This document shows, piece after piece, positions 18,732 to 38,480 of a DNA stretch of 42,335 bases (the first letter of the stretch is position 1; each line of letters begins with the position of its first letter). This stretch comes from Sphingomonadales bacterium CG_4_10_14_3_um_filter_58_15 (GTDB lineage: Bacteria; Pseudomonadota; Alphaproteobacteria; Sphingomonadales; Sphingomonadaceae): the NCBI GenBank assembly GCA_002783865.1, contig PFJE01000030.1, forward strand, positions 1 to 42,335, in the 5' to 3' direction. Below the pieces are notes generated by a model. That model saw nothing but the letters and a program-made list of their open reading frames with translations. It was not told where the DNA came from and ran no database searches. Made by a program: the position numbers and the translations under genes.

Positions 18732-19520
18732 TTACCTATTCGGGGCATGAAATTCTTCGCCGAGGTAAAAATGGCGCACGACCTTGTCCTCCAGCATGGC
18801 ATCTGGCGAACCGTCAAATACGATCCGGCCTTCGTGCAGCACATAGACCCGGTCCAGCAGACCGACCATCTCGCGGACGTTCTGGTCGGTAATCAGGATG
18901 CCCACATCATGGCTTTCGAGATTGGCAATCATCGTTTTGATATCCCTGACCGAAAGGGGATCAATCCCGGCGAAGGGCTCATCGAAGAGCATGATCGTAG
19001 GATCTGCTGCCATGGCCCTGGCGATTTCGCAACGGCGCCGCTCGCCGCCCGACAGCGCCCGCGCCGGAGCATGGCGAACATAGTCGATATGAAATTCTTC
19101 CAGCAGACGGTCCAGTTTCTCAGCCCTTACGACCGGGTCCGCCTCGAACAGCTCGAGCACCGTCATGATATTCTGTTCGACGGTCAGCCCGCGAAAAATT
19201 GAGGATTCCTGGGGCAAATATCCAAGGCCGCGCAGGGCACGCCGGTCCAGCGAAAGTCCGGTTATATCCTCACCATCGAGAAAAATACGGCCGGAATTAA
19301 CCCGTAACAAACCCAGTATCGAATGGAAGGTTACGGTTTTTCCTGCTCCGTCCCGACCGAGCAAGCCGACCACCTCCGATGGGCGGACATCGATTGAGAC
19401 GTCATTCAGGACCGTCTTTTTGGCAAATTTCTTGGTGATTGAGCAAACCGAAAGCCCGCTGTTATCCAGCGCTGCTGTTGCCGCTATATGCGACGAGGTC
19501 GGAAGAATGCCATGCTTCAA
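18732..19520 (-). CDS. LptB-like ABC transporter ATP-binding protein, divergent paralog
   Basis: A 262-residue ATPase with signature LSGGERRRCEIARAMA, Walker B IMLFDEPFAGIDP and the LptB-typical SIFRGLTVEQNI and ILITDQNVREM. LptB powers lipopolysaccharide extraction by LptFG. The Walker A is odd: GRDGAGKTVTF, where LptB normally has GPNGAGKTTTF, so the second Thr of the loop is Val and Pro-Asn is Arg-Asp. It also has about 20 extra N-terminal residues. No lptA/lptC or rpoN gene is next to it, unlike the usual lptB locus, which suggests a second copy with an altered role. Nucleotide hydrolysis may be changed. Confidence 0.8.
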   Translation of the reverse strand: MKHGILPTSSHIAATAALDNSGLSVCSITKKFAKKTVLNDVSIDVRPSEVVGLLGRDGAGKTVTFHSILGLLRVNSGRIFLDGEDITGLSLDRRALRGLGYLPQESSIFRGLTVEQNIMTVLELFEADPVVRAEKLDRLLEEFHIDYVRHAPARALSGGERRRCEIARAMAADPTIMLFDEPFAGIDPLSVRDIKTMIANLESHDVGILITDQNVREMVGLLDRVYVLHEGRIVFDGSPDAMLEDKVVRHFYLGEEFHAPNR

Positions 19521-20783: not shown

Positions 20784-21941
20784 ATGAAAATATTATTAGC
20801 TATCCTGGCCGGAGTGCTGCTTTCGACCTCGGTTTTCGCCCAGCCAGAAGATCAAGCGGAAAATTACCTGATCTGGACCGACCCGCAATTAGCGCAATTG
20901 CAGCGACTGGTGGATGCTCGCCTATCCGAGGGTCTGGAACGCTGTACCATCACGGATTTTAGCCAACCCAATTCCGCGACCGATCCCGACCGCCGTTCGC
21001 GCCTCGCTACAGCCGCTGCGAACGAGTTGATGATGGCCTATCTTGAGGGCTGTTCTCCCGCCTCGGCCAGAGCGAAATGGCATATCGATAGCGATGACCG
21101 CTATATTGATACGCAGCAATTGTTGTTGAAGGCATTGGTCCACGATGATCTTCCTGCCTATTTTGCCGCGCTGCGCCCGCGCAATCCGCAATATCGGGCG
21201 CTGCGCGAAGCCTATGCCGTGGAAACCGATGATGAAAAACGCGCCACGCTGGCGGTCAATATGGAACGCTGGCGCTGGATGCCGCTGGTGATGGGAGACA
21301 AATATCTGCTGGTGAACGCCGCCAGTTTTGAGGTGACGCTCTGGGAAGAGGACAAGAAAATCCGGACATGGCCGAACATCGTTGGCAAGACCAAATCGCC
21401 CACGCCGATTTTTGACGCCATGGTTAGCGGCGTTATCCTGAATCCCTGGTGGGAAATTCCCACATCCATCGTCGCCGAGAGCATCGGATCGCTGGTGCGC
21501 AACCATCCGGCGACGGCGCGGCGGAAAGGCTATGTCGTTCAGAATGGACGGTACAGGCAGCGCCCCGGACCCGGCAATGCTCTGGGCCAGATGAAACTGG
21601 TCATGCCAAACCCATACAGCATCTATTTGCATGACACGCCGAACAAGAATCTTTTTTCCGAACCCGTACGAACCTTCAGCCATGGCTGTATCCGGGTCGG
21701 CGGAGCTATCGATCTGGCAAAGACCTTGCTGGAGGGATCAGCGACCGAAGAGCAGGTCGACGCTATATTGGCCAGCCGGGAAACTACAAAACTGTCTTTG
21801 GCCAAGCCGATCCCGGTCTATATCGCCTATTTTACGGCAGAGAACTCAGAAAACAACGGTGTTCGCTATTTCCCGGATGTCTATAACCGCGATCGCCTGC
21901 AATTGGCGCAGCAGAATAGCGGGACGCGCTGCGCCGTATAA
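20784..21941 (+). CDS. L,D-transpeptidase, YcbB/LdtD-like
   Basis: A 385-residue periplasmic enzyme with a Sec signal peptide (residues 1-19, ending VFAQ) and a YcbB-type layout. Residues 155-165 carry NMERWRWMP, the beta-rich YkuD core has VGKTKSPTPIF and NPWWEIPTSI, and the active site is HDTPNKNLF followed by TFSHGCIRVG with the nucleophilic Cys. YcbB makes 3-3 cross-links between peptidoglycan stems. It is shorter than E. coli LdtD (615 residues) because most of the N-terminal and peptidoglycan-binding regions are missing, which is usual in alphaproteobacteria. It is convergent with the RiPP cassette. Confidence 0.9.
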   Translation: MKILLAILAGVLLSTSVFAQPEDQAENYLIWTDPQLAQLQRLVDARLSEGLERCTITDFSQPNSATDPDRRSRLATAAANELMMAYLEGCSPASARAKWHIDSDDRYIDTQQLLLKALVHDDLPAYFAALRPRNPQYRALREAYAVETDDEKRATLAVNMERWRWMPLVMGDKYLLVNAASFEVTLWEEDKKIRTWPNIVGKTKSPTPIFDAMVSGVILNPWWEIPTSIVAESIGSLVRNHPATARRKGYVVQNGRYRQRPGPGNALGQMKLVMPNPYSIYLHDTPNKNLFSEPVRTFSHGCIRVGGAIDLAKTLLEGSATEEQVDAILASRETTKLSLAKPIPVYIAYFTAENSENNGVRYFPDVYNRDRLQLAQQNSGTRCAV

Positions 21942-22041
21942 TTGTTTTTCACTAGCTGTGTGGCGCTGAAGTTTCGCGATGGTGGCCAAAGCTATCAACC
22001 TTTAGGCTGATCATGTTCGAGCGCATCTTTGCGATGCACAG

Positions 22042-23292
22042 CTAGCGGCCACGCCAATCCGCCAGTTCATCCAAAAATACCCGCCCGGATCCGGTAAATT
22101 TGCCGTGCTTGGCCAAGATCTCGATCGCACCTTCGATATCGTTCTCCAGTTCCTCTACACTTCCATGAACAGCATCTGCCTTTCGTCTGTGATCAAGAAC
22201 ATTGGAGAAGACATAGGCTCCTTCCAATATTCCCGCCAAAGGTCGCGGATCGGGACGCCATGGGACAGCAAATCGTTCCACCTCATCCTGAGCATAAAAA
22301 TCTTCCAGAATGGGGTCGACCAGTTGCATGTAACGCAACTTTACATGGGCATTTTCGTGGATGATATTCTCCGCCATGATGTCCGGCTCGTCGGGATCAA
22401 GGAACATGGCGCCCTGTCTCGAAAGAACGGTGAAGCCAATTTTTTTGTGCGGGCCGGTCGTGCGCGGAACCAAAACCGGGGTAAATGCTTTCACGTCCTC
22501 CGCTATTTCGGACGAAGCCTGCTCAATCTTTTCCATCGCCTGACGATAGGGGGTGACTGGAAACTCTTGCGGATATTGTTCGGCGCACGCCCCAAAAAAA
22601 TGGGTGCCGGTATTGCGTTCATTCGTTCCTGTCCAATGCGGCCTGAGCCATTCATCCCGGCATTGCAGTTGTGTGCCGCTGTCGGAGATCAAGTTATAGG
22701 TGTTAATGGAAAAACCGTCTTTCTCCACCTTGGGCAGCGGTGTGGCGGACTCTCCGGCATAGTCTTCGATCGGCAACTCGATGTTTAGTCCGTCTGGAAA
22801 ATGGACGGAAATCGAACCGCGCTGGCAGCGCAGCTCAATGGCTTGATTGGCCCGTGCAGGCCCAAATTCCAAATGACGGTCATAAATGGGAGCGCGGAGC
22901 CCTCCCTCAATATCCAACTTGACCTGCCAGTGATGCTCGGCTTTCGCGGCAACGCTCAATTGGATGCCAAGCGAGGCCGCTTGCTGGACAATCGGTATTG
23001 GGTGTTGAACGTCGACATTTCCGCTCACTCTGCGCATCGCCGACAACCAGTATTGGCTAGTTGGGTGAAGCAGGAATTTCTGAATTTCAGAGGTGGTTGA
23101 GGACCGAACCAAAAATGCGAACTGAAGCAATTGCTCGGCATCTGTTATTGATAAGCCGAGCGATCGCTGTTCTTCGATATAGTGGCGGCAGACAGTCTCA
23201 ATCTGCTTTTTCGTATGATCGAGCACCTTGCTCAAGATCGCATAGCGATGTTTCTTGTTGGCCGGACCCGCTTGTAGAATCGAATGAGACAT
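22042..23292 (-). CDS. HExxH-type peptide beta-hydroxylase family protein of the RiPP cassette
   Basis: A 416-residue protein with HENAH at residues 312-316 followed by PWRPDPRP at 344-351 and GILEGAYVF. This combination defines the HExxH domain that accompanies FxsB-type radical SAM maturases (TIGR04267, recently described as peptide beta-hydroxylases). In many actinobacterial systems this domain is fused to the maturase and has lost its motif; here it is a separate protein with the motif intact, so activity is expected. The first 270 residues have no named domain visible to me. Its ATG overlaps the TGA of the maturase gene by one base (TGATG), so translation is coupled. The precursor peptide is the likely substrate. 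Confidence 0.82.
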   Translation of the reverse strand: MSHSILQAGPANKKHRYAILSKVLDHTKKQIETVCRHYIEEQRSLGLSITDAEQLLQFAFLVRSSTTSEIQKFLLHPTSQYWLSAMRRVSGNVDVQHPIPIVQQAASLGIQLSVAAKAEHHWQVKLDIEGGLRAPIYDRHLEFGPARANQAIELRCQRGSISVHFPDGLNIELPIEDYAGESATPLPKVEKDGFSINTYNLISDSGTQLQCRDEWLRPHWTGTNERNTGTHFFGACAEQYPQEFPVTPYRQAMEKIEQASSEIAEDVKAFTPVLVPRTTGPHKKIGFTVLSRQGAMFLDPDEPDIMAENIIHENAHVKLRYMQLVDPILEDFYAQDEVERFAVPWRPDPRPLAGILEGAYVFSNVLDHRRKADAVHGSVEELENDIEGAIEILAKHGKFTGSGRVFLDELADWRGR

Positions 23293-24431
23293 CAAACCAC
23301 TTGCTCCCTGACTTTTTCCGGTAGCGATTCGCTCACACGGCTGTGGATATGCTCAACCAGTGGCAATAACGCATCGCAATAAACGCTGGGATGCATGAAA
23401 CTGCCGTCGGCTCCATATCGGTGGGGCATATAGCCGCCGCAAATGTCCCGGGCCGGGCATTGCTGGCATTGCGCGCACAGGCCGTCAGCACCTTCCTGGA
23501 AAGCGGCGATCATGGGATTGCTCGCCAGCTGGTCCAATCTTGTGTCGACCAGATTTGCTCCCAATTTGGTCACGCCATCGAAGCAACATTTAAAAGCGTC
23601 CGTAGGCTCCAGACTGCCATCTGTTTCGATAACCAGCACGTCGACCGGCTTGCCGCCGATGTTGTCGGTGCTTACCGGATAGCCAAACATCATGCGGATC
23701 ATATTGTCAAAATATCGGACATGCCTGTTCGGCCTGTTTCTATCGAACCAACCATCGAAGAATGCGATGAGCCAGTCCCGATATTCTTCAATCGGTCTGG
23801 GTGGTTTATGAACATGATTGGCATGGGGCAGGGAGAGATCAAAGCCTACAACATCTATGTCTTCCCAAAACGCGTGCATCGCGTCCGGACTGATTTGCGT
23901 ATCCACAACGGCGAGCACATTCGAGAAAACTTCTTGTCCTCTGGGATGGTTTTGCAGCAGCCGGATCGTATCAAAAACGCGCTCATACGATCCGTTGCCG
24001 CGATGATCGCGTCTATGCCGATCGTGAACTTGCCGCGGGCCGTCGACGCTGATGCCGATGCGGATGCCCAATTCTATGAATAGTTCTATCCATTCTTCAT
24101 CGACCAGCGTTCCGTTGGATTGAATGCTGAAGCGTGGCTCAACGCCGCTATCGAGAAATTTTGAACGAACAATCTCAACGATTCGACGAAGCCGCTTTTT
24201 CCCGGCAAGCAATGGCTCGCCGCCATGCATGATGAAGTGAATCGACGATAGTCCGTTCTGCCGGGCATGCTCCAATATCCTGCTTGAGCATTTTTCAGTG
24301 ACATCATCCAGCATGACGGCGGGTTGATTGCGATAGGTATCGTCTTGCAGATTATACATATAGCAATAGTCGCAATTCAGATTGCACCGGCTGGCTATCT
24401 TTACGACGAACGTCGAAAAGGGGACTCCCAT
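23292..24431 (-). CDS. radical SAM/SPASM cyclophane-forming maturase, FxsB family
   Basis: A 379-residue radical SAM enzyme. The [4Fe-4S] motif CNLNCDYC has cysteines at 16, 20 and 23, and MHGGEP follows at 68-73. A SPASM region at the C-terminus has cysteines at 282, 283, 319, 322, 325, 331 and 352, within CAQCQQCPARDICGGY and HPSVYC. The CGGYMPHRYG and PSVYC blocks are characteristic of FxsB-type maturases, which join the ring of an aromatic residue to the beta-carbon of the residue two positions on, giving three-residue cyclophanes. I chose ATG at 24431 (GGAG eight nt upstream) over a TTG at 24455 without a site. It lies 67 nt after the precursor gene. Confidence 0.9.
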   Translation of the reverse strand: MGVPFSTFVVKIASRCNLNCDYCYMYNLQDDTYRNQPAVMLDDVTEKCSSRILEHARQNGLSSIHFIMHGGEPLLAGKKRLRRIVEIVRSKFLDSGVEPRFSIQSNGTLVDEEWIELFIELGIRIGISVDGPRQVHDRHRRDHRGNGSYERVFDTIRLLQNHPRGQEVFSNVLAVVDTQISPDAMHAFWEDIDVVGFDLSLPHANHVHKPPRPIEEYRDWLIAFFDGWFDRNRPNRHVRYFDNMIRMMFGYPVSTDNIGGKPVDVLVIETDGSLEPTDAFKCCFDGVTKLGANLVDTRLDQLASNPMIAAFQEGADGLCAQCQQCPARDICGGYMPHRYGADGSFMHPSVYCDALLPLVEHIHSRVSESLPEKVREQVV

Positions 24432-24463
24432 GGGAGGTTCTCCAAATCGGGTCAAAAATTCGT

Positions 24464-24493
24464 TTTGGCAGCGATGCAGTCACCGCTGCCAAA
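24464..24493 (-). terminator. hairpin plus T5 between precursor and maturase genes, probable attenuator
   Basis: On the transcribed (minus) strand TTTGGCAGCG (24493-24484) pairs perfectly with CGCTGCCAAA (24473-24464) around a 10-nt loop; a run of five T follows a few bases later (24460-24456). This resembles a weak intrinsic terminator. Because the maturase gene continues directly downstream with no other promoter visible, partial read-through would give more precursor than enzyme, as is common in RiPP operons. Confidence 0.6.
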
Positions 24494-24498
24494 TGAAT

Positions 24499-24792
24499 TT
24501 ATGCCGCAGATGAAAAAGTCGAGAAGGTTGAAAAGGTCGAGAAGGTCGAGAACATATCGCTATCGATTGCGAAATCATCTCTGCCCAATAACCCGGCCGC
24601 TGCGGCCATCGCCGACCGGACCGCTTCACTGCGAACCTTGGCCAGTTGATCTTGCGAGAGTTCGATACCCCCGAGATCAAAACTGAGCTTTGTTTGCGGC
24701 TGTTCGAGCAGCTTTTTGTTTGTGGGTTCGGTGTAGTAGATTTTTCTACACGTATCTTGTTTGGGCGGTGTAGATTTTCTGATTTTTGCCAT
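24499..24792 (-). CDS. RiPP precursor peptide with repeated FST core and FxSxx C-terminus
   Basis: A 97-residue peptide with an AGGAG site eight nt before the ATG. Residues 1-80 form a leader with a basic start and an amphipathic helix (LSQDQLAKVRSEAVRSAMAA). Residues 81-97 are FSTFSTFSTFSTFSSAA, with Phe at 81, 84, 87, 90 and 93. The last five residues, FSSAA, match the FxSxx-COOH signature of FxsB substrates. The four preceding repeats carry Thr where the terminal one has Ser, giving up to five candidate F-x-S/T cyclophane sites. The repeats use different synonymous codons (TTC/TTT, TCG/TCA, ACC/ACT), so the peptide pattern is preserved by selection rather than by recent copying alone. It is the first gene of the cassette. 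No protease or export gene is adjacent. Confidence 0.85.
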   Translation of the reverse strand: MAKIRKSTPPKQDTCRKIYYTEPTNKKLLEQPQTKLSFDLGGIELSQDQLAKVRSEAVRSAMAAAAGLLGRDDFAIDSDMFSTFSTFSTFSTFSSAA

Positions 24793-25196
24793 GACATCAC
24801 TCCTAGATAAAAGATCAACAGAGATTATGTTTTATGGCGACCTGCGACTCGATTTAGCAGAAATTAACCAATATTGCAATTTTCGAAATACATGATCTAA
24901 GTTACTTTCATCTATGCAAATCTCTATTTGAGAACCGGAGCAATCCTATTGTCGGCCGCGCGATAACCGCGATAGCAAGGTGCCAGCGATAGCTGGTCAA
25001 GGCTCGGTTCGACGGACAAATTCTCTGCCAGATTCGCTGTTTGCCCCATAGTGCCACTAACTCTATGATCCATGAGAACTTCCACGAATCGGCTCCCCGC
25101 CGGGTAGTTTCCCCGTTCTAACATTCACTCCGAACCCTTCTGCCATTGATCGCCAACTTTTCTTGCAGCCGCCAAAGCTTGTGATAAGGTACTGCA
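24793..25196. other. 404-bp divergent region between the RiPP precursor and bchI
   Basis: The half next to the precursor is AT-rich and holds its probable promoter. The half near bchI contains a short minus-strand frame (24924-25124, 66 codons) that resembles no known protein. I find no TGT-N12-ACA PpsR-type box here, unlike the bchC promoter. A small stem (CCAGC-GATA-GCTGG) lies near 24987-25000. Confidence 0.5.
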
Positions 25197-26198
25197 ATGA
25201 GCGGTTTTCCTTTTAGTGCAATTGTCGGTCAGGAAGAGATGAAGCTGGCGCTGCTAGTGGCGGCGGTGGATGCCCGTATTGGCGGCGTGATGATCTTTGG
25301 CGATCGCGGGACAGGCAAGTCGACCGCCGCGCGGGCGCTGGCCGCAACCTTGCCGCAGATCAGGGCGGTCGATGGTTGTCGCTTTCATTGCGAGCCGGAG
25401 AACCGTGATGATTGTCCGGATCCGTGCACCAGTAAAAGGATACGCAAAATGGCGGTGCCGTTTGTCGATCTGCCGCTCGGTTCGACCGAGGATCGCGTCG
25501 TTGGTACGCTGGATCTTGAAAAGGCACTGGCGCACGGCGAAAAGCATTTCGAGCCGGGGCTGCTGGCCAAGGCGCATCGCGGTTTTCTCTATATCGACGA
25601 GATCAATCTGCTGGAGGATCATGTGGTCGATCTGCTGCTTGATGTCGCGGCTTCTGGTGAGAATCTGGTCGAGCGCGATGGACTTAGCATAAGACATCCG
25701 GCGCGTTTTGTGCTGATTGGCAGCGGCAATCCGGAGGAGGGCGAACTGCGCCCACAGTTGCTCGACCGCTTTGGGTTGTCGGTGGAAGTGAAGACGCCGG
25801 ACGATATCGATCAGCGCGTCGAGATCATGCGCCGCTGCGATGCGCAGGAGCGGGACGCGGCGAAATTTACCGCCAAGTGGAAGGGCGAGGACGCGAAAGT
25901 GCTGCGCCAGATTGATCGTGCGAAAAAGGCGCTGCCCAAGGTGAAAACGCCGGCGAAAATTTTGCGGGACACGGCGGCCTTGTGCAAGGCGGTTGGCGCT
26001 GACGGCCTGCGCGGCGAATTGACCTTGATGCGAGGGGCGAGAGCATTTGCCGCGCTGCAGGGCGATGTGTCGGTGACGCTGGACCATCTGAAAACCATGG
26101 CACCCTTGTCGCTGCGCCATCGCTTGCGCCGGGATGTGCTCGATGAAACCGGTTCAACGGTTCGGATCGAGAGGGCGCTGGAGGAGTTGTTCGGTTGA
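25197..26198 (+). CDS. bchI: magnesium chelatase subunit I
   Basis: A 333-residue AAA+ ATPase of the Mg-chelatase, which inserts Mg2+ into protoporphyrin IX, the committed step of bacteriochlorophyll synthesis. Walker A GDRGTGKST is at residues 35-43, Walker B FLYIDEINLL near 135, and the cysteine-containing insert ENRDDCPDPC near 70 is typical of BchI. BchI forms a hexamer that works with BchD and the large subunit BchH, which is not in this window. It is the first gene of bchIDO and overlaps bchD by four bases. Confidence 0.97.
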   Translation: MSGFPFSAIVGQEEMKLALLVAAVDARIGGVMIFGDRGTGKSTAARALAATLPQIRAVDGCRFHCEPENRDDCPDPCTSKRIRKMAVPFVDLPLGSTEDRVVGTLDLEKALAHGEKHFEPGLLAKAHRGFLYIDEINLLEDHVVDLLLDVAASGENLVERDGLSIRHPARFVLIGSGNPEEGELRPQLLDRFGLSVEVKTPDDIDQRVEIMRRCDAQERDAAKFTAKWKGEDAKVLRQIDRAKKALPKVKTPAKILRDTAALCKAVGADGLRGELTLMRGARAFAALQGDVSVTLDHLKTMAPLSLRHRLRRDVLDETGSTVRIERALEELFG

Positions 26199-27916
26199 AC
26201 GGCGAGGCTGAACCAGAAGCGGCCTCGACGGATTCCTCTCCGGCTGACTGCCTGCTCACAGCCCGGCTTTTTGCGCAAAACCCCGGTAATTTCGGCGGCA
26301 TCTGTTTGCGGGGTTTCGGACCGGTGCGTGACGCGCTTTTGGAGAAACTGGTGAGCGCGCTCGAACCGCTTGGGCCGGTTCTAAAAATTCCGAACAATGT
26401 TGATAGCGAGCGGCTGCTCGGCGGTATCGATCTGGCGGCGACCTTGCAGGGCGGGCGATCGGTTTGGCGACCGGGGCTGCTCGAGACCGCACAGAATGGC
26501 GTGGTTCTGCTGCCGATGGCGGAGCGGATCGACGAGAATATTGCAGCGCATATCGCGCAGGCGATGGATATCGGTAAGCTTTCTATCATTTTGCTTGATG
26601 ATGGGATGGAGAGCGATGAAGCGCCACCGACAGTGCTACTGGAGCGGATAGCATTTCACTGTGATTTGACAGGCTCGCGGGATCTGGAAGCTGTCAAAGC
26701 GCTGAATTTGAGCTGCGAAAGTGCGGCTAAGATAAGGGCTATGACCAAGAAGCAGCGGGGCGCGTTGGCGGCGACGGCAGCGGCCTCCGGGATCCATTCG
26801 GTGCGGCCACTGCTGTTTGCCGAGCGCTGTGCGACGCGCCATGCGGCGCTGGCAGGGCATGACAAGATTGCGGACCAAGATCTGCAGATGGCCGTGCGGC
26901 TGGTGCTTGGCCCGCGCGCGACGCAATTTCCGCAACAGCATGAATCGCCACCTCCGCCGCAGGAGGAACCAAGTCCGCCGGATCAGGATTCCAGCGAAGG
27001 CGAGGATCAGCAAAACATCGAGGATATCCCGTTGGAGGATTTGCTGCTGGAAGCGGCTACAGCCTCGATTCCCCCGCATATATTGGATCAGATCGAAGGC
27101 AAGGTCCGGCAAGCTGGCAAGGGGCAGGGCGGCCGTGCGGGCAACAAGCAACAGTCGACCAAACGAGGGCGGCCGAAAGGCACCCGGCCTGGTGTTCCCG
27201 GCAACGGCAAGCGGCTGGCCTTGATCGATACGCTGCGGACTGCTGCGCCCTGGCAGACAATAAGGCGCAACGAGAGCGGTAATCTGGAGCCGGGCAAAAT
27301 CCATATTCGCAAATCGGACCTGCGGGTGCATCATTATGAAGAGCGGCAGGAAAGCCTGACGATTTTTGCGGTGGATGCATCGGGGTCTTCGGCGCTGTCC
27401 CGTCTGGCAGAGGCGAAAGGGGCGGTCGAACTGATGCTGGCGGAAGCCTATGTCAAACGCTCGCAGGTGGCGCTTGTCGCTTTCCGGAAAGACGGAGCGG
27501 AAGTGTTGTTGCCGCCGACCCGGTCGCTGACGCGGGCAAGGCGTGCTCTGGGTGCTTTGCCGGGCGGTGGCGGTACCCCGCTGGCGGCTGGATTGATCTC
27601 CGCAAGGCAGCTGGCCGAAGCCGCGCGGAAGCGCGGGCAGACGCCGACCATTGCGATGCTGACGGATGGCAAGGGCAATGTGATGCTGGATGGTACCGCC
27701 AATCGGAAGGGAGCGAAAGCCGAGATGGAGGAGGTAGCGAAGGGCATTGCGGCGCTGGGCCTTAACAGTATCGTTATCGATATTTCGCCGCGCCCGCGGC
27801 CAGAGGCGGTGGAGCTGGCTGCGGCGCTGCGCGGCAGATACCTGCCGCTGCCGAGAGCACAGAGCGCGGCGCTGGTCGCTGCGATCGAGAGCGTTGGCAA
27901 GGAAGCAATGGTATGA
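26195..27916 (+). CDS. bchD: magnesium chelatase subunit D
   Basis: A 573-residue subunit with an N-terminal AAA+-like domain lacking an intact Walker A, and a linker near residues 248-275 rich in Pro and acidic residues (SPPPPQEEPSPPDQDSSEG). A C-terminal von Willebrand A domain carries the MIDAS motif DASGSSALS near residue 393. It bridges BchI and BchH. The start is TTG at 26195, overlapping the bchI stop by four bases; GGAGGAG eight nt upstream supports it, and no ATG lies nearby. It ends in ATGA shared with bchO, so the three genes are tightly coupled. Confidence 0.95.
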   Translation: MNGEAEPEAASTDSSPADCLLTARLFAQNPGNFGGICLRGFGPVRDALLEKLVSALEPLGPVLKIPNNVDSERLLGGIDLAATLQGGRSVWRPGLLETAQNGVVLLPMAERIDENIAAHIAQAMDIGKLSIILLDDGMESDEAPPTVLLERIAFHCDLTGSRDLEAVKALNLSCESAAKIRAMTKKQRGALAATAAASGIHSVRPLLFAERCATRHAALAGHDKIADQDLQMAVRLVLGPRATQFPQQHESPPPPQEEPSPPDQDSSEGEDQQNIEDIPLEDLLLEAATASIPPHILDQIEGKVRQAGKGQGGRAGNKQQSTKRGRPKGTRPGVPGNGKRLALIDTLRTAAPWQTIRRNESGNLEPGKIHIRKSDLRVHHYEERQESLTIFAVDASGSSALSRLAEAKGAVELMLAEAYVKRSQVALVAFRKDGAEVLLPPTRSLTRARRALGALPGGGGTPLAAGLISARQLAEAARKRGQTPTIAMLTDGKGNVMLDGTANRKGAKAEMEEVAKGIAALGLNSIVIDISPRPRPEAVELAAALRGRYLPLPRAQSAALVAAIESVGKEAMV

Positions 27917-28809
27917 GCCGGCGCTATCCCGAATGGACTATTGAGGGTCAGGACTGGCCCAACCATCAGGCGAGCCGGTTTGTCGAGGCGGACCGTTACA
28001 AATGGCATGTCCAGCGGATGGGGCCGAAGAAAGCCGGAGCGCCGGTCTGCCTGTTGCTGCACGGGACTGGAGCGGCGACGCATAGCTGGCGGGACATCAT
28101 CCCATTACTGGCCAAGGATTATGATGTGATCGCGCTGGATTTGCCGGGCCATGGTTTTACCCGGCCCACGATTAGCCGTCAGGTTTCTCTGCCGAAAATG
28201 GCCGCGTCGATCGGGGTGTTGCTGGAAGAATTGGAAGCATCTCCGGCGCTTATTGTCGGCCATTCGGCGGGCGCAGCGATCGGCCTGCAGTTGATGTTGG
28301 ACAAATGTTGGAAAATCCCACTTGTTGGATTGAACCCGGCGCTGATGCCCTTTCCCGGATTGGCCGCAAAACTGTTTCCGCAGCTAGCTAAGATGTTGTT
28401 TACAAACCCTTTTGTATCGCGAATCTTTGCCCGTTGGGCACGCTATCCGGGGGAGACCGAGAAGTTTCTGCGCCGCTCTACCGGGTCGCGGATCGACCCC
28501 GCCGGGGCGCTCTATTACGGACATTTGTTCAGCCGGTCCGGGCATTGCGATGGAGCGATCCGGATGATGGCCAACTGGCGGCTGGAAGAGCTGCAAAATC
28601 GGCTGACTGAAATTGAGACGCCGGTGTTGCTGGTCCACGGACAGAAAGACAATGCGATCCCGAAATCAGCGGTGCAAGGGGCGGCCGATCTGATCGCCCA
28701 ATCCACCATTGAGGAGGTCGCCAATGTTGGCCATCTGGCGCATGAGGAAGACCCGGAGCAATTGGCCCAGATCATCCTGAAATTTGCGAAGCGGCATGTG
28801 AAACTGTAG
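27913..28809 (+). CDS. bchO: BchO, alpha/beta hydrolase associated with Mg chelatase
   Basis: A 298-residue alpha/beta-hydrolase with oxyanion region LLHGTGAATHSW, nucleophile elbow GHSAG near residue 116, and a late His in VGHLAHEEDP. BchO is found in nearly all bchID operons; its precise role in Mg-protoporphyrin synthesis is not settled. The ATG overlaps the bchD stop (ATGA). It is followed after 23 nt by a small membrane-protein gene. Confidence 0.93.
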   Translation: MSRRYPEWTIEGQDWPNHQASRFVEADRYKWHVQRMGPKKAGAPVCLLLHGTGAATHSWRDIIPLLAKDYDVIALDLPGHGFTRPTISRQVSLPKMAASIGVLLEELEASPALIVGHSAGAAIGLQLMLDKCWKIPLVGLNPALMPFPGLAAKLFPQLAKMLFTNPFVSRIFARWARYPGETEKFLRRSTGSRIDPAGALYYGHLFSRSGHCDGAIRMMANWRLEELQNRLTEIETPVLLVHGQKDNAIPKSAVQGAADLIAQSTIEEVANVGHLAHEEDPEQLAQIILKFAKRHVKL

Positions 28810-28832
28810 GACAGGGGCTACAGGAGGGTGTT

Positions 28833-29000
28833 ATGGAGACAGGTCCGTTTGACAGTCTGGGATGGATTGAAATTGTCGTAACCGGGGCGATCGCGTTGGG
28901 ACTAGGCTTCTGGCAGCTTTGGTCGGTCAATAGGGAAATTGCCAAGGACAAGGAAAAGGCGGCCGCCAAAGACCGGGTCGAGGAACCGAAAGGTCAGTAG
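28833..29000 (+). CDS. 55-residue single-helix membrane protein at the end of bchIDO
   Basis: The frame begins METGPFDSLGWIEI, has one membrane helix (about residues 12-30, VVTGAIALGLGFWQLW) and a highly charged Lys/Glu tail (KDKEKAAAKDR). A strong AGGAGGG site precedes the ATG, and spacing to bchO is 23 nt, so it is probably translated with the operon. The topology resembles other one-helix accessory proteins of photosynthesis clusters, but I do not recognise it as a named one. It ends 22 bp before the convergent crtC. Confidence 0.7.
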   Translation: METGPFDSLGWIEIVVTGAIALGLGFWQLWSVNREIAKDKEKAAAKDRVEEPKGQ

Positions 29001-29022
29001 GCCGGTTTGAGCCCTATCCCAT

Positions 29023-29988
29023 CTATTGAGTGCGACTGAGGAATATCGGCAGAGGGATATGAAAGGCTTTGGATGGTCGGTTCGGTTCGCGCGGCATCTT
29101 GTACGGGAGCATGTTTTGAATCACCGGATTGACCAGGCGATTCAGGGAAATACTTTCCTGAATTGCGGTCACTTGTTTACCAAAAAGGCGCATTTTTAAC
29201 GCGGACCGTGCATAAAAGGGGGAATCTTCCCATGTTTTTACCACCGAAGCATGACCGCGGTCGGCGCGCGTCTGTCTTTTCATGCCCCACCATGTTGGCG
29301 GCAAGGGTGCAACCAGTGGCAGATCGACTTCCTGTGGCGTGCCCGAAGCATCAAAGCGCAAGGCGCTGGCGAAATGGCTGCCATCGCGGCGGATGCCTTC
29401 GTAGGTCACCGCGACATCGCGGCCGCAATGGGCGCGGGACCAGTGCCAGCTCCGGAAACCGTCCTCGATCGGTTCGCTGCCGTGATTACCGTCGAGATAG
29501 CCGCTGCCGGACCATGACACATCCGGTTGGTCCATCTTCACCTCGATGCGCGCGCGCGGCGCGATCGTGTGCCAGTGATGGTTGCCGGCCGGGTCGAGCT
29601 TAAAGCTTTTGTCGTTGAGGATTTCCGGGTGCAGGATGATCCGGCCCTTCACGCGCCGCCGCCAGGGAATGCCCAAGCGGATATCGCGTTCCTCGATATC
29701 GATAATCAGCCGGTCCTTGTCCCAGCGCATCGCGCTGGGGCCGATGGTCAGCGCGTCTTCCGCCTGATGCGTGTCCTGCAGACCGCGCTCGGTCATCACC
29801 CATCGCGCGCCGCGCTTGCCGTAGAGCGCAACATTGAGGCAGCTGTGGTCGAGCGGAATGTTGCGGCCCGAGATTTTATAATAAGGCGAGAAGACGCTGC
29901 CGATAAAGCCGATGATGGTCAGCCCGTAGCGTTCGTCATCGCTGAGCGCATCGACATACCACCAGCGGTAGCCCTGCGGTGGAACCAC
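29023..29988 (-). CDS. crtC: carotenoid 1,2-hydratase (hydroxyneurosporene synthase)
   Basis: CrtC adds water to the C1,2 double bond of acyclic carotenoids, the first step toward spheroidene or spirilloxanthin. The family pattern PPQGYRWWYVDALSDDERYGLTIIGFIGSVFSPYY, WSRAHCGRDVAVTYEG and MKRQTRADRG is clear. The start is uncertain: the conserved region begins at VVPPQGYRWW, and the only nearby start is GTG at 29988, giving 321 residues; an ATG at 30144 would extend far into crtD. With the GTG, crtC and crtD overlap by 70 bp in different frames. Confidence 0.88.
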   Translation of the reverse strand: MVPPQGYRWWYVDALSDDERYGLTIIGFIGSVFSPYYKISGRNIPLDHSCLNVALYGKRGARWVMTERGLQDTHQAEDALTIGPSAMRWDKDRLIIDIEERDIRLGIPWRRRVKGRIILHPEILNDKSFKLDPAGNHHWHTIAPRARIEVKMDQPDVSWSGSGYLDGNHGSEPIEDGFRSWHWSRAHCGRDVAVTYEGIRRDGSHFASALRFDASGTPQEVDLPLVAPLPPTWWGMKRQTRADRGHASVVKTWEDSPFYARSALKMRLFGKQVTAIQESISLNRLVNPVIQNMLPYKMPREPNRPSKAFHIPLPIFLSRTQ

Positions 29989-31466
29989 GACGTCGAAGCG
30001 CGGTCGGACAGGACGGCTTCGCTCGCCAACTGCCCCGACAAGGCGGCCATCGGTACCCCCGCGCCCGGATGGGTCGCTCCGCCCGCGCAATAGAGCCCAT
30101 GGATCCGTGTCCGGCTCCCGGGCCGGAGGAAGGACGCCGCCCATCCGTGCGAGGCCCGACCATAAAGCGCCCCGCCGGTCGCCGGGAAGAGTGTCGAGAA
30201 ATCGTTGGGCGTGACCAGTCTGTGCGGAAAGCCCGGTTCCATCTCCAGTCCGCAATGGGTCAGTGTCTGCAGCATGTTCGCCGTGCATTTCGCTTTCTCC
30301 TCGGATGTATAGTGATGATGATCGCCATTGGCCGGCGCGTTGACGATGACCTGCAGACGCTGTGATCCGCCCGGCTTCGCTTCGCCCAGTTTGCAGACAT
30401 AGGCAGTCGGTTGCTCGGGCGGTTTGCCTGCTTTAATATTGGTAAATTCAGCCGGATAATCGGCTGAGAAGAACACATTGTGATGGTCGAGTTCGAAGCC
30501 GGATGTTTTGCTGTTTGCCAGCCAGACCATGGCGGATAGCGATCGTTTTTGCGGTGGCATTGCGCTCACAGCCTGACTGGCTTCGACCCCGAACAGGCCG
30601 GAGCCGAGAGCCGATGGGTCAGCGTTGCAGATCACCGATCCCGCTTCGATCCATTCGCCGGATTCCAGTCGCACGCCGGTGGCCCGGTTTTTCGCCACGG
30701 CGATTTTGGTGACGCGGGCATCATAGTGAAAGCGCGCGCCATTTTTTCTGGCGACGGTTTCCAGTGCATGGGCGAGGGCGGTCATCCCGCCCCTGATATT
30801 CCATACGCCTTGCGACTCGACATGCGCAATCAGCATCAGCGTGGCCGGTGTCTGAAAGGGGGAGGAGCCGCAATAGGTCGTGTAGCGACCGAACAATTGT
30901 TGCAGGCGCGGATCGTCAAAATGCTCACCGAGCACCTTCCAGAGACTTTCATAGGGGCGGATCGCGATCAGGTCGCCAACCCGCCACAGGCCGATCCGCC
31001 ACATCAGTGGCAGGGGCCAGCTGACCTTGGTATTGCGCAGCATCGACCGATCGAGAATTTTATAAATGCGTTCGGCTTCTTTCGAAAAGCTGCGATAGCC
31101 AGCGGCTGCTTTGGCACCGGCAAATTGACCGATGGCATCCGCGCTTTTTTCGGGATCGGCAAACAGATCGAGCGTTTCGTCGCGGCTCCAGGCATGGCGG
31201 GCGAGCGTGTCGGCGCGTTCCAGTTCGAGATGATCGTCGCTGCTGCTGCCGGCCGCTTTGAATATATCATCGATAACATCGCGCATCGTGAAAACCGTGG
31301 GGCCAGCATCGATTGCCGCGCCTTCCACATCGAGCTGCCGGACCTTGCCGCCGGGGGATTTTTCCTTTTCCAGAACGGTCACCGGGACCCCGCGCGCCGA
31401 GAGCAGGGCGGCGCTTACGAGACCGCCAATGCCGGCGCCGATAATGATGGTCTGGTCCTTCTCCAC
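29919..31466 (-). CDS. crtD: 1-hydroxycarotenoid 3,4-desaturase (methoxyneurosporene dehydrogenase)
   Basis: A 515-residue FAD-dependent desaturase. It has an N-terminal dinucleotide motif IIGAGIGGLVSAALL, AGPTVFTMRDVIDDIF, FGRYTTYCGSSPF and the C-terminal FAD block GLYCAGGATHPGAGVPMA. The TMRDVIDDIF and ARHAWSRDETLDLFADP segments point to CrtD rather than the phytoene desaturase CrtI. It acts after CrtC in acyclic carotenoid synthesis. The start is GTG at 31466 with GGAG five nt before. It overlaps crtC by about 70 bp and is divergent from crtF. Confidence 0.9.
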   Translation of the reverse strand: MEKDQTIIIGAGIGGLVSAALLSARGVPVTVLEKEKSPGGKVRQLDVEGAAIDAGPTVFTMRDVIDDIFKAAGSSSDDHLELERADTLARHAWSRDETLDLFADPEKSADAIGQFAGAKAAAGYRSFSKEAERIYKILDRSMLRNTKVSWPLPLMWRIGLWRVGDLIAIRPYESLWKVLGEHFDDPRLQQLFGRYTTYCGSSPFQTPATLMLIAHVESQGVWNIRGGMTALAHALETVARKNGARFHYDARVTKIAVAKNRATGVRLESGEWIEAGSVICNADPSALGSGLFGVEASQAVSAMPPQKRSLSAMVWLANSKTSGFELDHHNVFFSADYPAEFTNIKAGKPPEQPTAYVCKLGEAKPGGSQRLQVIVNAPANGDHHHYTSEEKAKCTANMLQTLTHCGLEMEPGFPHRLVTPNDFSTLFPATGGALYGRASHGWAASFLRPGSRTRIHGLYCAGGATHPGAGVPMAALSGQLASEAVLSDRASTSWFHRRATAGGMSMRSAMTNATG

Positions 31467-31517
31467 TTGCGCTCCGGTAGCTTCGCGTGAGTTTCAGTTT
31501 GACGGGAATCTATCAGA

Positions 31518-31560
31518 AGTCCATTCAAATAGACATAATTTATGTCCAGTGATCGAGACG
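31518..31560. promoter_or_regulatory. two degenerate PpsR/CrtJ-type boxes between crtD and crtF
   Basis: Box 1 (31518-31535) is AGTCCATTCAAATAGACA and box 2 (31543-31560) is TGTCCAGTGATCGAGACG. Each fits TGTC-N10-GACA with one outer mismatch, and 7 bp separate them. A 15-bp perfect palindrome (GACATAATTTATGTC) spans the space between. The second box touches the crtF start codon at 31542, so crtF may be leaderless or start further on, or only the crtD promoter is controlled. Confidence 0.5.
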
Positions 31561-32678
31561 ATAGCCATGTACAGCTCAGCTGGAAGACCCGCTGGGTGCT
31601 TCGCCGCAACCGGATTTTGGGCAGTGCCGCTTTTCAGAATTGGGCCGCGCGAACGCCGATCTTTCGAATGGTTGCCCGGCGCAAGGCGGCGCAGCAATTC
31701 GATCTGATTGCCGGTTTCGTCTATACCCAGATTCTCTATGTTTATGTGCAGACGGGCCTGATCGGATATTTGCGGGAGGGTCCGCACGGTGCCGGCGATA
31801 TTGCGGCTTTTGCAAAACTGACCGGCGAAGCGACGGACCGAATCCTGCGCGCGGGCGCTGCCCTTGATATCGTCGAATCGCCGCAAGCGGGATTGTGGAC
31901 CTTGGGGCAAACGGGAGCGGAACTCTCGGCCAATGATGGCGCGATGGCGATGATCCGGCACCACCAACTGCTCTATCGCGATATGGCAGACCCGATTGCC
32001 CTGCTCGGCCAGCAAGGCGGCGAGAGCAGCAGCCTTTCACAATTCTGGACCTATGCCTCGAAGAGCGAAGTCGGGGCCGATGACAGTCAGCCTTACTCCG
32101 ATTTGATGGCCGCTACCCAGCCGATGATATGGCAGCAGATATTGCCCAAATATGATTTTTCGCGGCATCGCAAGATGCTCGATATTGGCGGGGGCAGCGG
32201 CGCGTTTGCGGAAGCAGTGGGCCAGATCGCGCCGCGACTCGAACTGGCGCTATTCGATTTGCCCGACGTCGTGCCGCTGGCAAAATCGCGTTTTGCGGCG
32301 ACGGCGATGGATCATCGAGTCGTGATCCATGCCGGCAGTTTCACACAGGATCCCATTCCGCGAGGCCATGATTTGATCACGCTGATCCGTATCCTCCATG
32401 ACCATGATGATTCGGTCGTCAACGGCCTGCTGCCCAAGATATATGCTGCGCTTCCCAGCGGAGGGCGATTGCTGATTGTCGAGCCGATGGCGGAAACCAA
32501 GAGGGCCGAACCGATGGGCGACGGCTATTTTGGACTCTATCTCTGGGCGATGGGTTCGGGTCGGCCCCGTTCTGTCATCGAAAATAGACAGATGCTTGAA
32601 AAAGCCCGATTTTCAGCGATCCGTGAGATTGGAACCGACCTACCGATCATCGCAAAAGCGCTTGTCGCGATCAAATGA
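31542..32678 (+). CDS. crtF: hydroxyneurosporene O-methyltransferase
   Basis: A 378-residue SAM-dependent methyltransferase that methylates the 1-hydroxy group made by CrtC. The N-terminus has the CrtF-typical RWVLRRNRILGSAAFQNWAA and ALFDL-like AAQQFDLIAGFVYTQ; the SAM motif MLDIGGGSGAFAEAVG is near residue 212, followed by FDLPDVVPLA and LIRILHDHDD. The ATG at 31542 lacks a ribosome site but family homology begins soon after it. It is divergent from crtD, sharing a region with two PpsR-like boxes, and is followed by the bchC promoter. Confidence 0.93.
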   Translation: MSSDRDDSHVQLSWKTRWVLRRNRILGSAAFQNWAARTPIFRMVARRKAAQQFDLIAGFVYTQILYVYVQTGLIGYLREGPHGAGDIAAFAKLTGEATDRILRAGAALDIVESPQAGLWTLGQTGAELSANDGAMAMIRHHQLLYRDMADPIALLGQQGGESSSLSQFWTYASKSEVGADDSQPYSDLMAATQPMIWQQILPKYDFSRHRKMLDIGGGSGAFAEAVGQIAPRLELALFDLPDVVPLAKSRFAATAMDHRVVIHAGSFTQDPIPRGHDLITLIRILHDHDDSVVNGLLPKIYAALPSGGRLLIVEPMAETKRAEPMGDGYFGLYLWAMGSGRPRSVIENRQMLEKARFSAIREIGTDLPIIAKALVAIK

Positions 32679-32687
32679 CATGAAAAG

Positions 32688-32731
32688 TGTCCAATATAAT
32701 TGACATTTAAGATTGTTTAAGTAATTTGACA
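32688..32731. promoter_or_regulatory. paired PpsR/CrtJ operator upstream of bchC
   Basis: Two perfect TGT-N12-ACA palindromes, TGTCCAATATAATTGACA (32688-32705) and TGTTTAAGTAATTTGACA (32714-32731), are separated by 8 bp. This is the spacing known for the bchC promoter of purple bacteria, where PpsR (CrtJ) represses in the presence of oxygen or light. The start of bchC lies 50 bp downstream. The regulator gene itself is not in the window. Confidence 0.8.
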
Positions 32732-32781
32732 CTCAACGGAGTCCTTCTTTCCCAGCAAGGACATCGTGAGGAGGGGATGCT

Positions 32782-33717
32782 TTGCAAACTTCAGCGATCA
32801 TATTGGATGCCCCAGGCAACCTATCGATGCGCAGGACTGCTCTGAACCCCTTGAAATCTGGCGATGTTCAAGTCGAAATTCAATTTAGCGGTATCAGCAC
32901 GGGCACAGAAAAACTTCTGTGGACCGGCCAGATGCCGGATTTTCCCGGCATGGGATATCCGCTGGTTCCCGGTTACGAGTCGGTGGGCCGGATCGTCGAT
33001 GCCGGTGCGGAGGCAAAAGGCCGGATCGGCGAGTGGGTGTTTGTCCCCGGTGCCAGTTGCTACCGCGATGCTCGCGGGTTGTTCGGTGGATCGGCAAGAA
33101 CCGTCATCGTGGCTTCGGCCCGCGCTCTGCCGATCGCAGAGAAATTGGCGGAAGAGGGCATCTTGTACGCGCTCGCGGCAACCGCGCTCCATGCCATTGG
33201 TCACGGCGATGCGCCGGAACTGATTATTGGCCATGGCGTTTTGGGCCGACTTATAGCGCGACTGACTATTGCTTCTGGCGCACCCGCGCCGATGGTTTGG
33301 GATACCAATCGCTCGCGGCAGAATGGTGCTGCTGGTTATTCCGTCATGCATCCGGATGATGATGACCGGCATGATTATCAGACAATCTGCGACGTCAGCG
33401 GCGATGCAGCTTCTATTGAAAGTTTTATCGGCCGTCTGGCCAAAGGCGGCGAACTGGTGTTGGCCGGATTCTACAGCCAGCCGATCAGCTTTGCTTTCGC
33501 ACCCGCGTTTCAGCGCGAGGCTCGGCTACGCATTGCCGCAGAATGGCAGCCGCGCGATCTGGCTTCGATCAATATGATGATCGAGAGCGAAGCGCTCGAC
33601 CTGACGGGCCTGATCACCAGTATAGAACCCGCCGCCCAAGCCGAAACAGCCTACCCCGAGGCTTTTGAAAATCCCGACTGCCTGAAAATGGTACTCGACT
33701 GGAGAGATTGCGAATGA
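32782..33717 (+). CDS. bchC: bacteriochlorophyllide a dehydrogenase (3-hydroxyethyl oxidation)
   Basis: A 311-residue member of the medium-chain dehydrogenase superfamily that oxidises the 3-hydroxyethyl group of the bacteriochlorin ring to acetyl. The family block GISTGTEKLLWTGQMPDFPGMGYPLVPGYESVG and VFVPGASCY is clear. The start is TTG at 32782 with AGGAGGGG five nt upstream; the ATG at 32777 is in another frame. Its TGA overlaps the bchX ATG. It heads the bchCXYZ-pufBALM operon and is preceded by a paired PpsR site. Confidence 0.95.
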   Translation: MQTSAIILDAPGNLSMRRTALNPLKSGDVQVEIQFSGISTGTEKLLWTGQMPDFPGMGYPLVPGYESVGRIVDAGAEAKGRIGEWVFVPGASCYRDARGLFGGSARTVIVASARALPIAEKLAEEGILYALAATALHAIGHGDAPELIIGHGVLGRLIARLTIASGAPAPMVWDTNRSRQNGAAGYSVMHPDDDDRHDYQTICDVSGDAASIESFIGRLAKGGELVLAGFYSQPISFAFAPAFQREARLRIAAEWQPRDLASINMMIESEALDLTGLITSIEPAAQAETAYPEAFENPDCLKMVLDWRDCE

Positions 33718-34697
33718 CCATGTTAGATGTTGATATATTGCGTGACGAAGCTTCGATCGAACCCGATCCGGTTCATACCGGTGAGGTGAAGAAGGAAACC
33801 CAGGTCATCGCCATTTACGGCAAGGGTGGTTCGGGCAAGAGTTTTGCGCTTTCGAATCTGAGCTACATGATGGCGCAACAAGGCAAGCGTGTTCTCCTGA
33901 TCGGTTGCGATCCGAAGTCGGACACGACCAGCCTGTTGTTTGGCGGCAAAAGCTGCCCGACGATCATCGAAACATCCTCCAAGAAAAAACTGGCCGGTGA
34001 AGAAGTCAGCATCGAAGATGTCTGCTTCCAGCGTGACGGCGTTTTTGCCATGGAACTCGGCGGACCCGAAGTCGGACGCGGATGCGGCGGACGCGGCATC
34101 ATTCATGGTTTTGAATTGCTCGAGAAGCTCGGCTTTCACGACTGGGGCTTTGACTATGTGCTGCTCGACTTTCTCGGCGACGTGGTTTGCGGCGGCTTCG
34201 GCCTGCCGATTGCGCGGGACATGTGCCAGAAGGTGATCGTCGTCGGATCGAACGATCTGCAGTCGCTCTATGTCGCGAACAATGTCTGCAAGGCGGTCGA
34301 ATATTTCCGCAAGATGGGCGGCAATGTCGGCGTCGCCGGCATGATCATCAACAAGGACGACGGCAGCGGTGAGGCGCAGGCCTTCGCCAAGGCGGTCGAT
34401 ATTCCGGTGCTGACCGCGATCCCCGCCAATGATGATATCCGCAAGAAGTCGGCCAATTATCAGATCATCGGCACGCCCGAAAGCGAATGGGCGAGCCTGT
34501 TCGAGGAGCTGGCGATCAATGTCGCCGAAGCGCCGCCGAAGCAGCCGACACCGTTGGAGCAGGACGGTCTGCTGGGCCTCTTCTCGCCCGACGAAACGGG
34601 CGGTAATGTCCAGCTTATTCCAGCCACCCAGGCGGATATGCGCGGCGGCACCTATGAAGAAAAGCCATCCCTCGAAGTGATCTACGACGAGGTTTGA
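33714..34697 (+). CDS. bchX: chlorophyllide a reductase, iron-protein subunit X
   Basis: A 327-residue NifH-like ATPase that supplies electrons to BchYZ for reduction of ring B. The P-loop YGKGGSGKSFALSNL is near residue 36, and the two cysteines that bridge the shared [4Fe-4S] cluster lie in GRGCGGRG and DVVCGGFG. ATG at 33714 overlaps the bchC stop (ATGA); a TTG at 33708 would add two residues. It is followed after three nt by bchY. Confidence 0.96.
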   Translation: MTMLDVDILRDEASIEPDPVHTGEVKKETQVIAIYGKGGSGKSFALSNLSYMMAQQGKRVLLIGCDPKSDTTSLLFGGKSCPTIIETSSKKKLAGEEVSIEDVCFQRDGVFAMELGGPEVGRGCGGRGIIHGFELLEKLGFHDWGFDYVLLDFLGDVVCGGFGLPIARDMCQKVIVVGSNDLQSLYVANNVCKAVEYFRKMGGNVGVAGMIINKDDGSGEAQAFAKAVDIPVLTAIPANDDIRKKSANYQIIGTPESEWASLFEELAINVAEAPPKQPTPLEQDGLLGLFSPDETGGNVQLIPATQADMRGGTYEEKPSLEVIYDEV

Positions 34698-34700
34698 TGG

Positions 34701-36245: not shown

Positions 36246-36265
36246 GCGGTTTTGCACCGACCCTG

Positions 36266-36338
36266 CCGTTCGCCCTGAGCTTGTCGAAGGGTGATTTGCA
36301 CACTGGCAATTGGGCTTCGACAGGCTCAGCCCGAACGG
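36266..36338. repeat. sphingomonad-type palindromic repeat between bchY and bchZ
   Basis: A 24-nt arm at 36266-36289 (core CTGAGCTTGTCGAAG) faces an imperfect complement at 36315-36338 (core CTTCGACAGGCTCAG) across a 25-nt spacer. This inverted pair is one I recognise as a highly repeated intergenic palindrome in Sphingomonadales genomes. Its transcript would form a long hairpin inside the bchCXYZ-puf mRNA. Confidence 0.8.
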
Positions 36339-36360
36339 GGTGGATTGGGGAGAGGCTGGT

Positions 36361-37806: not shown

Positions 37807-37946
37807 TATGCGTGGATATCCCCAGATATTCGCTGGACCGACGTCCAGTGTCCGCAACCTTAGCGACAATGGGTGTCGTCAAGGCAATACCCGTGGGAGG
37901 CGCCTTGTGCGGCTTTCAGGGGGCTAAACTGGAGAAGGAAATATGA
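37803..37946 (+). CDS. 47-residue frame bridging bchZ and pufB, function unknown
   Basis: The frame starts with an ATG in the ATGA that closes bchZ and ends with a TGA in the ATGA that opens pufB, so it overlaps both genes by four bases. It starts [15 protein letters not shown] and has a hydrophobic middle ([14 protein letters not shown]). Rhodobacter has pufQ at this place, but I see no sequence likeness and no clear membrane helix. It might be a translational coupler or leader that links bchCXYZ expression to puf, or a chance frame. Confidence 0.4.
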
Positions 37947-38176
37947 GCGATTTAAGTGACGACCGTTTCGGTCCCGGAGCTTATCTGACCCCGGAAGAGG
38001 CCAAGGAGTTTCACAAGATTTTTGTGAGCAGCTTCATCGGATTTACCATCATCGCAATCATTGCGCACGTGCTGGTATGGATGTGGCGGCCCTGGTTACC
38101 CGGTGTCAATGGCTACGCAATGTTGAATGATGGTGTCCAGGTTGCGCAGGCAACCATCACCTCGTTCTTGGTATAG
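37943..38176 (+). CDS. pufB: light-harvesting 1 beta polypeptide
   Basis: A 77-residue one-helix antenna protein. The acidic N-terminus precedes [32 protein letters not shown], where the His of IIAHVL is the bacteriochlorophyll ligand and WMWRPW is the conserved C-terminal anchor. GGAGAAGG lies before the ATG. The roughly 25-residue tail after the helix ([20 protein letters not shown]) is longer than in Rhodobacter LH1 beta. It is followed after 12 nt by pufA. Confidence 0.96.
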
Positions 38177-38188
38177 GGAGACAGAATC

Positions 38189-38374: not shown

Positions 38375-38387
38375 ACCCAAGCCCTTT

Positions 38388-38418: not shown

Positions 38419-38480
38419 CACAGGGGAGATTTCTTAGGCTCGAAATTTGCACACCGATCGTGGTGGCAGAGGAATTTGCT

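Follow-up and report, generated by a model that had tools for sequence, protein, structure and literature searches.

What peptide is produced by a cassette in which a precursor with a tandem Phe-Ser-Thr repeat is followed by two putative tailoring enzymes? This question is raised by contig PFJE01000030.1 of Sphingomonadales bacterium CG_4_10_14_3_um_filter_58_15, which was analyzed over 42,335 nucleotides (hereafter, the window). According to the list of open reading frames (ORFs) and their translations, three intact ORFs lie on its minus strand and encode, in this order, a precursor peptide of 97 residues (24792-24499), an FxsB-like radical S-adenosylmethionine (rSAM)/SPASM maturase of 379 residues counted from its ATG (24431-23292), and a stand-alone alpha-ketoglutarate (alphaKG)-HExxH-type peptide hydroxylase of 416 residues, likewise counted from ATG (23292-22042). 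The precursor, the cyclophane-type SPASM maturase, and the intact alphaKG-HExxH protein form one operon, and we consider it likely that this is a triceptide-type operon for a ribosomally synthesized and post-translationally modified peptide (RiPP) that is crosslinked and then hydroxylated. We favor this reading because the two enzymes match TIGR04269 (just below its cut-off) and TIGR04267 and have ChlB and ChlH as relatives, because the expected cysteines are conserved, and because the precursor carries an F-S-T repeat with an F-S-S-A-A end. The overlap of the maturase and hydroxylase genes, a hairpin behind the precursor gene, purifying selection on the hydroxylase, and published precedents argue in the same direction. 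What the analysis of the DNA itself shows is which genes are present and in what order, how their products score against family models, that the motifs are intact, that a hairpin is predicted, that the hydroxylase is under selection, and that the cassette lies beside a photosynthesis cluster.

A preliminary description of this DNA had already placed the three genes on one strand, with a one-base overlap of the last two and no transporter or protease gene directly adjacent. The ORFs bear this out: the overlap reads TGATG, and the cassette is flanked by an L,D-transpeptidase gene and bchI. The precursor ATG is preceded at 7 nt by an AGGAG ribosome-binding site (24800-24804) and the maturase by GGAG (24440-24443); an in-frame TTG 8 codons upstream of the maturase ATG is also a possible start. 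Between these two genes, folding prediction and a pattern scan revealed a 13-bp terminator-like hairpin with the tail ACGAATTTTT (24464-24493, minus strand; z = -4.84), and none of 200 shuffled sequences was as stable. Terminator-like sites in 21900-25250 numbered six against a shuffle mean of 4.0, a number that chance alone would give, so that the case for the hairpin is carried by the 13-bp stem, the longest of the six, and by its place. The predicted fold suggests that the hairpin may terminate a share of the transcripts behind the precursor gene, which would leave the precursor in excess of the enzymes.

The maturase and the HExxH protein

The maturase scored 366.3 bits against the FxsB model TIGR04269 (E = 1.6e-109, profile positions 1 to 362 of 363), 3.7 bits under the cut-off of 370, and 354.5 bits against the YhhB model NF041707, about 90 bits under the cut-off of 445. 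Its nearest solved chain in the PDB is ChlB (E = 7.7e-76). Of its 11 cysteines, seven are conserved in every row of a 10-row alignment, namely C16, C20, and C23 (CX3CX2C) as well as C322, C325, C331, and C352, in agreement with the earlier statement that all the expected rSAM and SPASM cysteines are present. The plasmid collection contains 298 records that match the maturase, the best being plasmid6 of Calothrix brevissima NIES-22 (L038) with 49.6% identity over 378 residues; the next one listed has 38.2%. In a 27-row tree, the Calothrix protein is the sister of the maturase (97/97), Gloeobacter and Spirosoma join this pair next (96/96), and Nocardia, Nonomuraea, Streptomyces, and the other alphaproteobacterial rows fall elsewhere. 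The FxsB-like and Yhh-like rows of this tree were chosen by hand (9 of 17 plasmid records just below the top matches, plus genome hits), and matches with E values over 1e-40 (Paracoccus yeei) were excluded, as were frames that kept at most 320 residues after trimming (G257). The Calothrix, Gloeobacter, and Spirosoma relatives are also under both the FxsB and YhhB cut-offs, and the Nocardia and Nonomuraea maturases pass FxsB with 452.8 and 467.1 bits. Since the protein lies below the TIGR04269 cut-off and outside the actinobacterial FxsB rows of the tree, we call it FxsB-like: by the curated test it is not FxsB, and its sequence places it in a neighboring clade. The preliminary label of an FxsB-type maturase is thus retained for a cyclophane-type rSAM/SPASM enzyme and dropped for FxsB itself.

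Genome counts given here for family, class, and phylum refer to samples and not to censuses. The maturase was matched at E <= 1e-40 in 6 of 385 genomes of the class and at E <= 1e-50 in 4 of 398 of the phylum, its own genome included in both. Viral contigs gave no match to the maturase alone; with a two-row maturase alignment, 41 loci were retrieved, whose best segments had 21-34% identity, and 27 phage records contain distant rSAM proteins below 60% identity.

The third protein keeps an intact HExxH motif (HENAH, residues 312-316) and has PWRPDPRP at residues 344-351. It passed the alphaKG-HExxH model TIGR04267 with 77.3 bits against a cut-off of 40 (E = 1.4e-21, residues 250-410), and its PDB relatives 22nu (E = 3.3e-6) and ChlH 8s5f (E = 1.2e-5) align over the region of HExxH and PWRxDxRP. 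With both motifs intact and the model passed, its earlier assignment as a stand-alone member of the peptide beta-hydroxylase family stands; of the two profile searches proposed with that assignment, this one was passed and that with TIGR04269 narrowly missed. The catalytic half of the hydroxylase is under purifying selection, since the C-terminal 240 codons shared with a sister metagenome-assembled genome (MAG) show 4 nonsynonymous and 23 synonymous differences, a ratio of nonsynonymous to synonymous substitution rates (dN/dS) of 0.046, compared with 0.108 for the neighboring L,D-transpeptidase in the same genome pair. Within the family, the protein as a query matched 4 of 298 genomes, its own included and the other three weakly over 86-90 residues, and TIGR04267 was found in 10 of the 298, again with its own, 9 of them over the cut-off. 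A scan of genome contigs with this protein returned one locus (L019).

The precursor and its possible products

The presumed core of the precursor, residues 81-97 (FSTFSTFSTFSTFSSAA; 24502-24552, minus strand), consists of four contiguous, in-phase F-S-T units and a terminal F-S-S-A-A, the last five residues forming a literal F-x-S-x-x-COOH end, a pattern taken from the family name FxSxx-COOH. It would follow a leader of about 80 residues, as far as the border between the two can be inferred. The repeat has a DNA period of 9 nt, and its F-S-T units differ only by synonymous codons. These changes are also silent in the antisense frame, which reads (E-K-V)n over 50 codons, and therefore give no proof of the reading frame; the latter is established by the ribosome site, by the position before the maturase, and by the lack of a usable antisense start. 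The antisense frame was ruled out as a rival gene because its single start-type codon sits near its end.

The route proposed for the product is drawn by analogy with the named families; this applies to the crosslinks and hydroxyls with their positions, to removal of the leader, to export, and to the role of the peptide. The SPASM maturase would hold the leader, take a hydrogen from the side chain at position i+2, and join that carbon to the ring of Phe i, which would close a ring of three residues, a cyclophane, in the terminal F-S-S and perhaps in some or all of the four preceding F-S-T units as well. The Fe(II)/alphaKG HExxH enzyme would then add at least one beta-hydroxyl to the crosslinked peptide, family precedents suggesting the repeat Phe or the Asp residues just before the repeat as the likeliest sites, and general cell proteins, none encoded adjacently, would remove the leader and export the product. 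MscB is reported to bond Phe C4 to Ser C-beta (PMC11002830), and an rSAM-fused HExxH enzyme is reported to work on a preformed cyclophane (PMC12636437). Reported targets are His, Asp, Phe, and Gln for earlier HExxH members and Pro for PesO (PMC13060819).

Several observations weigh against this triceptide-type reading. Besides the missed FxsB and YhhB cut-offs, the precursor matched no NCBIfam family at E <= 1, and no relatives of it were found by profiles, plasmid BLAST, DNA-pattern scan, or leader comparison. The homology of the hydroxylase is confined to about residues 250-411, the first 250 or so being unmatched, and a comparison by hhalign with five stand-alone homologues reached 98.3% probability over residues 294-411 only; its single-sequence structure prediction had a predicted local distance difference test score of 38.8. 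A promoter scan of 21900-25250 returned 2 sites, both on the plus strand (3.1 expected), and none ahead of the precursor gene on the minus strand, and the Calothrix locus has no adjacent HExxH gene. We also know of no Phe-x-Thr cyclophane.

As for the precursor itself, the candidate precursor beside the accepted Nocardia FxsB is likewise without an NCBIfam match, at E <= 1e-10. Pfam returned one irrelevant model below cut-off, and BLAST against the plasmid collection gave 0 matches, where the low-complexity filter may hide the repeat. A degenerate DNA pattern for tandem FST matched 2 of 296 genomes of the order, its own and G1132, and the latter match was rejected because it lies antisense to a repeat, rich in lysine, at the C-terminal end of a gene read as ftsQ. 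Homology of the leader to that of the Calothrix candidate was not significant, as 13% of 2000 shuffles attained its score of 27. With six further candidates, 4% to 70% of 500 shuffles reached the score; the lowest value, 4% for Nocardia, is one of seven tests, and no homology is claimed.

A multi-cyclophane product had been expected in the preliminary description. Such a product would depend on Phe-x-Thr crosslinking, as Phe-x-Ser occurs in the last unit only; no report of a Phe-Thr cyclophane was found in a search confined to open-licence papers, itself weak evidence of novelty. It is possible, if rather unlikely, that crosslinking is limited to the terminal F-S-S, in the manner of peptides with a single F-x-S-x-x-COOH motif, and that the four F-S-T units stay open or are merely hydroxylated. 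MscB is reported to join Phe to Ser (PMC11002830), a crosslink at Thr C-beta would create a fully substituted carbon, and tandem F-x-T is absent from the candidate precursors chosen by eye near other maturases, one of which (in G616) has a single F-V-T. On the other hand, four exact, in-phase F-S-T units with synonymous differences only suggest that the unit itself is kept, and comparable maturases accompany other repeated motifs (F-V-S in L045 and in L046, where some letters are masked). In L047, the repeat is F-D-L-S. We are also doubtful of a reading in which each unit in the FSTFSTFSTFSTFSS core, which has no spacers, is crosslinked through Phe-Thr bonds, five back-to-back cyclophanes forming a rigid rod that the HExxH enzyme then oxidizes at repeated sites, the maturase representing a clade outside curated FxsB to which proteins from plasmids of cyanobacteria and Bacteroidota also belong. 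The Phe-Thr bond of such a rod would lie at the Thr C-beta or at the methyl. If the HExxH enzyme took the middle Ser, beta-hydroxylation would lead to a formylglycine aldehyde.

Appreciably less probable is that the three genes are a relic, either decaying or silent. The whole cassette was matched in 1 of 32 congeneric genomes, its own, the sister MAG having the last 240 codons of the hydroxylase only; no further congener overlaps it among the matches listed, and a promoter-like site is missing, as noted above. Nevertheless, all three ORFs are intact, synonymous differences prevail in the shared part of the hydroxylase, and the sister MAG is 67% complete, so that its truncation may be an assembly fault. 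We regard as very unlikely that the HExxH protein is a zinc protease trimming the leader instead of an oxygenase. HExxH is the classical metalloprotease motif, no protease gene is adjacent, and the oxygenase PflC is reported to hydrolyze a truncated substrate (PMC12636437), but the protein passes TIGR04267, aligns with ChlH over HExxH and PWRxDxRP, and gave 0 Pfam matches at E <= 1, peptidase models included. Finally, oxidation of the Ser of each unit to formylglycine by the maturase, with the same -2 Da per site as a crosslink, is the least credible option. Anaerobic sulfatase maturases, which carry out this oxidation, are relatives (TIGR03942, 171.6 bits; PDB 4k37, E = 3.5e-32), and every unit contains a Ser, but the maturase stays far below the TIGR03942 cut-off of 349.45 bits, gains roughly double that score against FxsB and YhhB, and matches ChlB much better in the PDB.

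Related systems and genomic surroundings

The separate, intact HExxH protein had initially been singled out as special, a view that we abandon: a stand-alone HExxH protein beside a related maturase is not new, because several other bacteria have such pairs. They were seen in Nocardia, Rhodococcus, Rhizobium lusitanum, and Nonomuraea, in three genomes of the same family (G117, G253, G287) and two of the same class (G616, G556), and, beside a distant rSAM (E = 6e-12), in Paracoccus yeei. NCBIfam defines an inactivated fused HExxH form (NF040587), and the four fused proteins inspected (L042, L043, L050, L051) keep an intact HExxH. In G117 (L048, 3810-8311), three HExxH proteins of 380, 367, and 362 residues surround one SPASM maturase, which suggests several hydroxylations of one precursor.

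FxSxx-COOH/FxsB triceptides (MscB; Nocardia, L041; Nonomuraea, L070) resemble the cassette in maturase architecture and the terminal F-x-S-x-x, and the two actinobacterial loci also have a separate HExxH protein downstream; the cassette differs from them by its sub-cut-off score, its place in the tree, and the repeated F-S-T before the terminal motif. The YhhA/YhhB systems belong to the same superfamily (NF041707), some with a fused HExxH, but have Tyr/His cores, e.g., YDRMHHRHNR, and a cut-off that our maturase misses. Calothrix holds the closest maturase found outside the genus, but its candidate precursor is without the FST repeat. ChlA/ChlB/ChlH of Chlorogloeopsis (PDB 9gm3, 8s5f) includes the nearest solved relatives of both enzymes, and the YhhA-type peptides examined from this group have a Tyr/His-based motif. 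This system is likewise reported to form several cyclophanes and then to hydroxylate, but its two activities are fused (PMC12636437).

Repeats also occur in other candidate precursors. In G566 (L047, 6325-6522), a 65-residue candidate with five terminal S-F-D-L copies adjoins a cyclophane-type rSAM gene, and in G930 (L063, 6450-6698) and G868 (L064, 5632-5895), candidates with repeated F-R-R and Gly-rich spacers precede a maturase of a separate clade. A Paracoccus yeei plasmid (L073, 162-788) encodes a 208-residue protein with a four-fold HVNSGPPGFVNGGGHANFDP repeat, a possible multi-core precursor; an annotated radical SAM gene follows after about 0.9 kb, together with an HExxH gene.

To the right of the precursor, bchI (TIGR02030, above cut-off) starts after 404 bp, followed by ORFs that we take to be bchD, bchO, crtC, crtD, crtF, bchC, bchX, bchY, bchZ, pufL, pufM, and bchP. 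An ABC ATP-binding protein gene 2.5 kb from the cassette (18732-19520) is presumably LptB-like, and congener G1212 has such a gene without the cassette. No Rfam match was found across 21900-25300 and no tRNA by ARAGORN in the window. The L,D-transpeptidase region was compared in five cassette-free congeners (L095, L096, L099, L101, L102). In one of them, G1212, the L,D-transpeptidase gene lies directly beside a gene read as cytochrome-c-like, which is 79% identical to its counterpart in the sister MAG (L100), located there on the far side of a remnant of the photosynthesis genes. This gene is also present on contig C71 of the cassette's own genome (98% identical), beside ORFs read as hemA and puhE. 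G1212 therefore shows the empty site, which the cassette and the photosynthesis cluster together fill here. A strong bchI match was seen in just two of the congeners, G1231 and G1207, and neither carries the cassette ahead of that gene. The G+C content of the cassette genes (0.49-0.52) is close to that of the 20 kb on the left side (0.525) and unlike that of the photosynthesis genes (0.586), which speaks against a shared origin of cassette and cluster; a common origin is thus not established.

In the sister MAG (LH_M45; L019 near 6001, L100 near 15810), the hydroxylase gene breaks off at codon 177 (window position 22764) and runs directly into what we read as the terminal part of puhC, followed by acsF, puhE, and hemA, and window positions 24400-42335 are absent except for six short matches. 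The junction has one of two causes: the photosynthesis cluster was largely deleted, or this incomplete MAG was misassembled. Around 36264-36345, between the genes read as bchY and bchZ, about 75 bases of the window resemble six places of the sister MAG with 73-82% identity.

In summary, the cassette is a familiar triceptide-type system with an unusual precursor, whose Phe-Ser-Thr tail is probably stitched into rings and then hydroxylated. A recent preprint describes the reactions of the alphaKG-HExxH family as not yet predictable (PMC13060819), and triceptide bioactivities are reported as not yet known (PMC12257519). With the cassette, a RiPP operon stands at the edge of a set of phototrophy genes. 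As a small system, it allows two questions to be tested: whether Thr at i+2 is accepted by a cyclophane maturase that proceeds through a repeat without spacers, and which sites in a core of Phe, Ser, and Thr are hydroxylated by an alphaKG-HExxH enzyme that stands alone.

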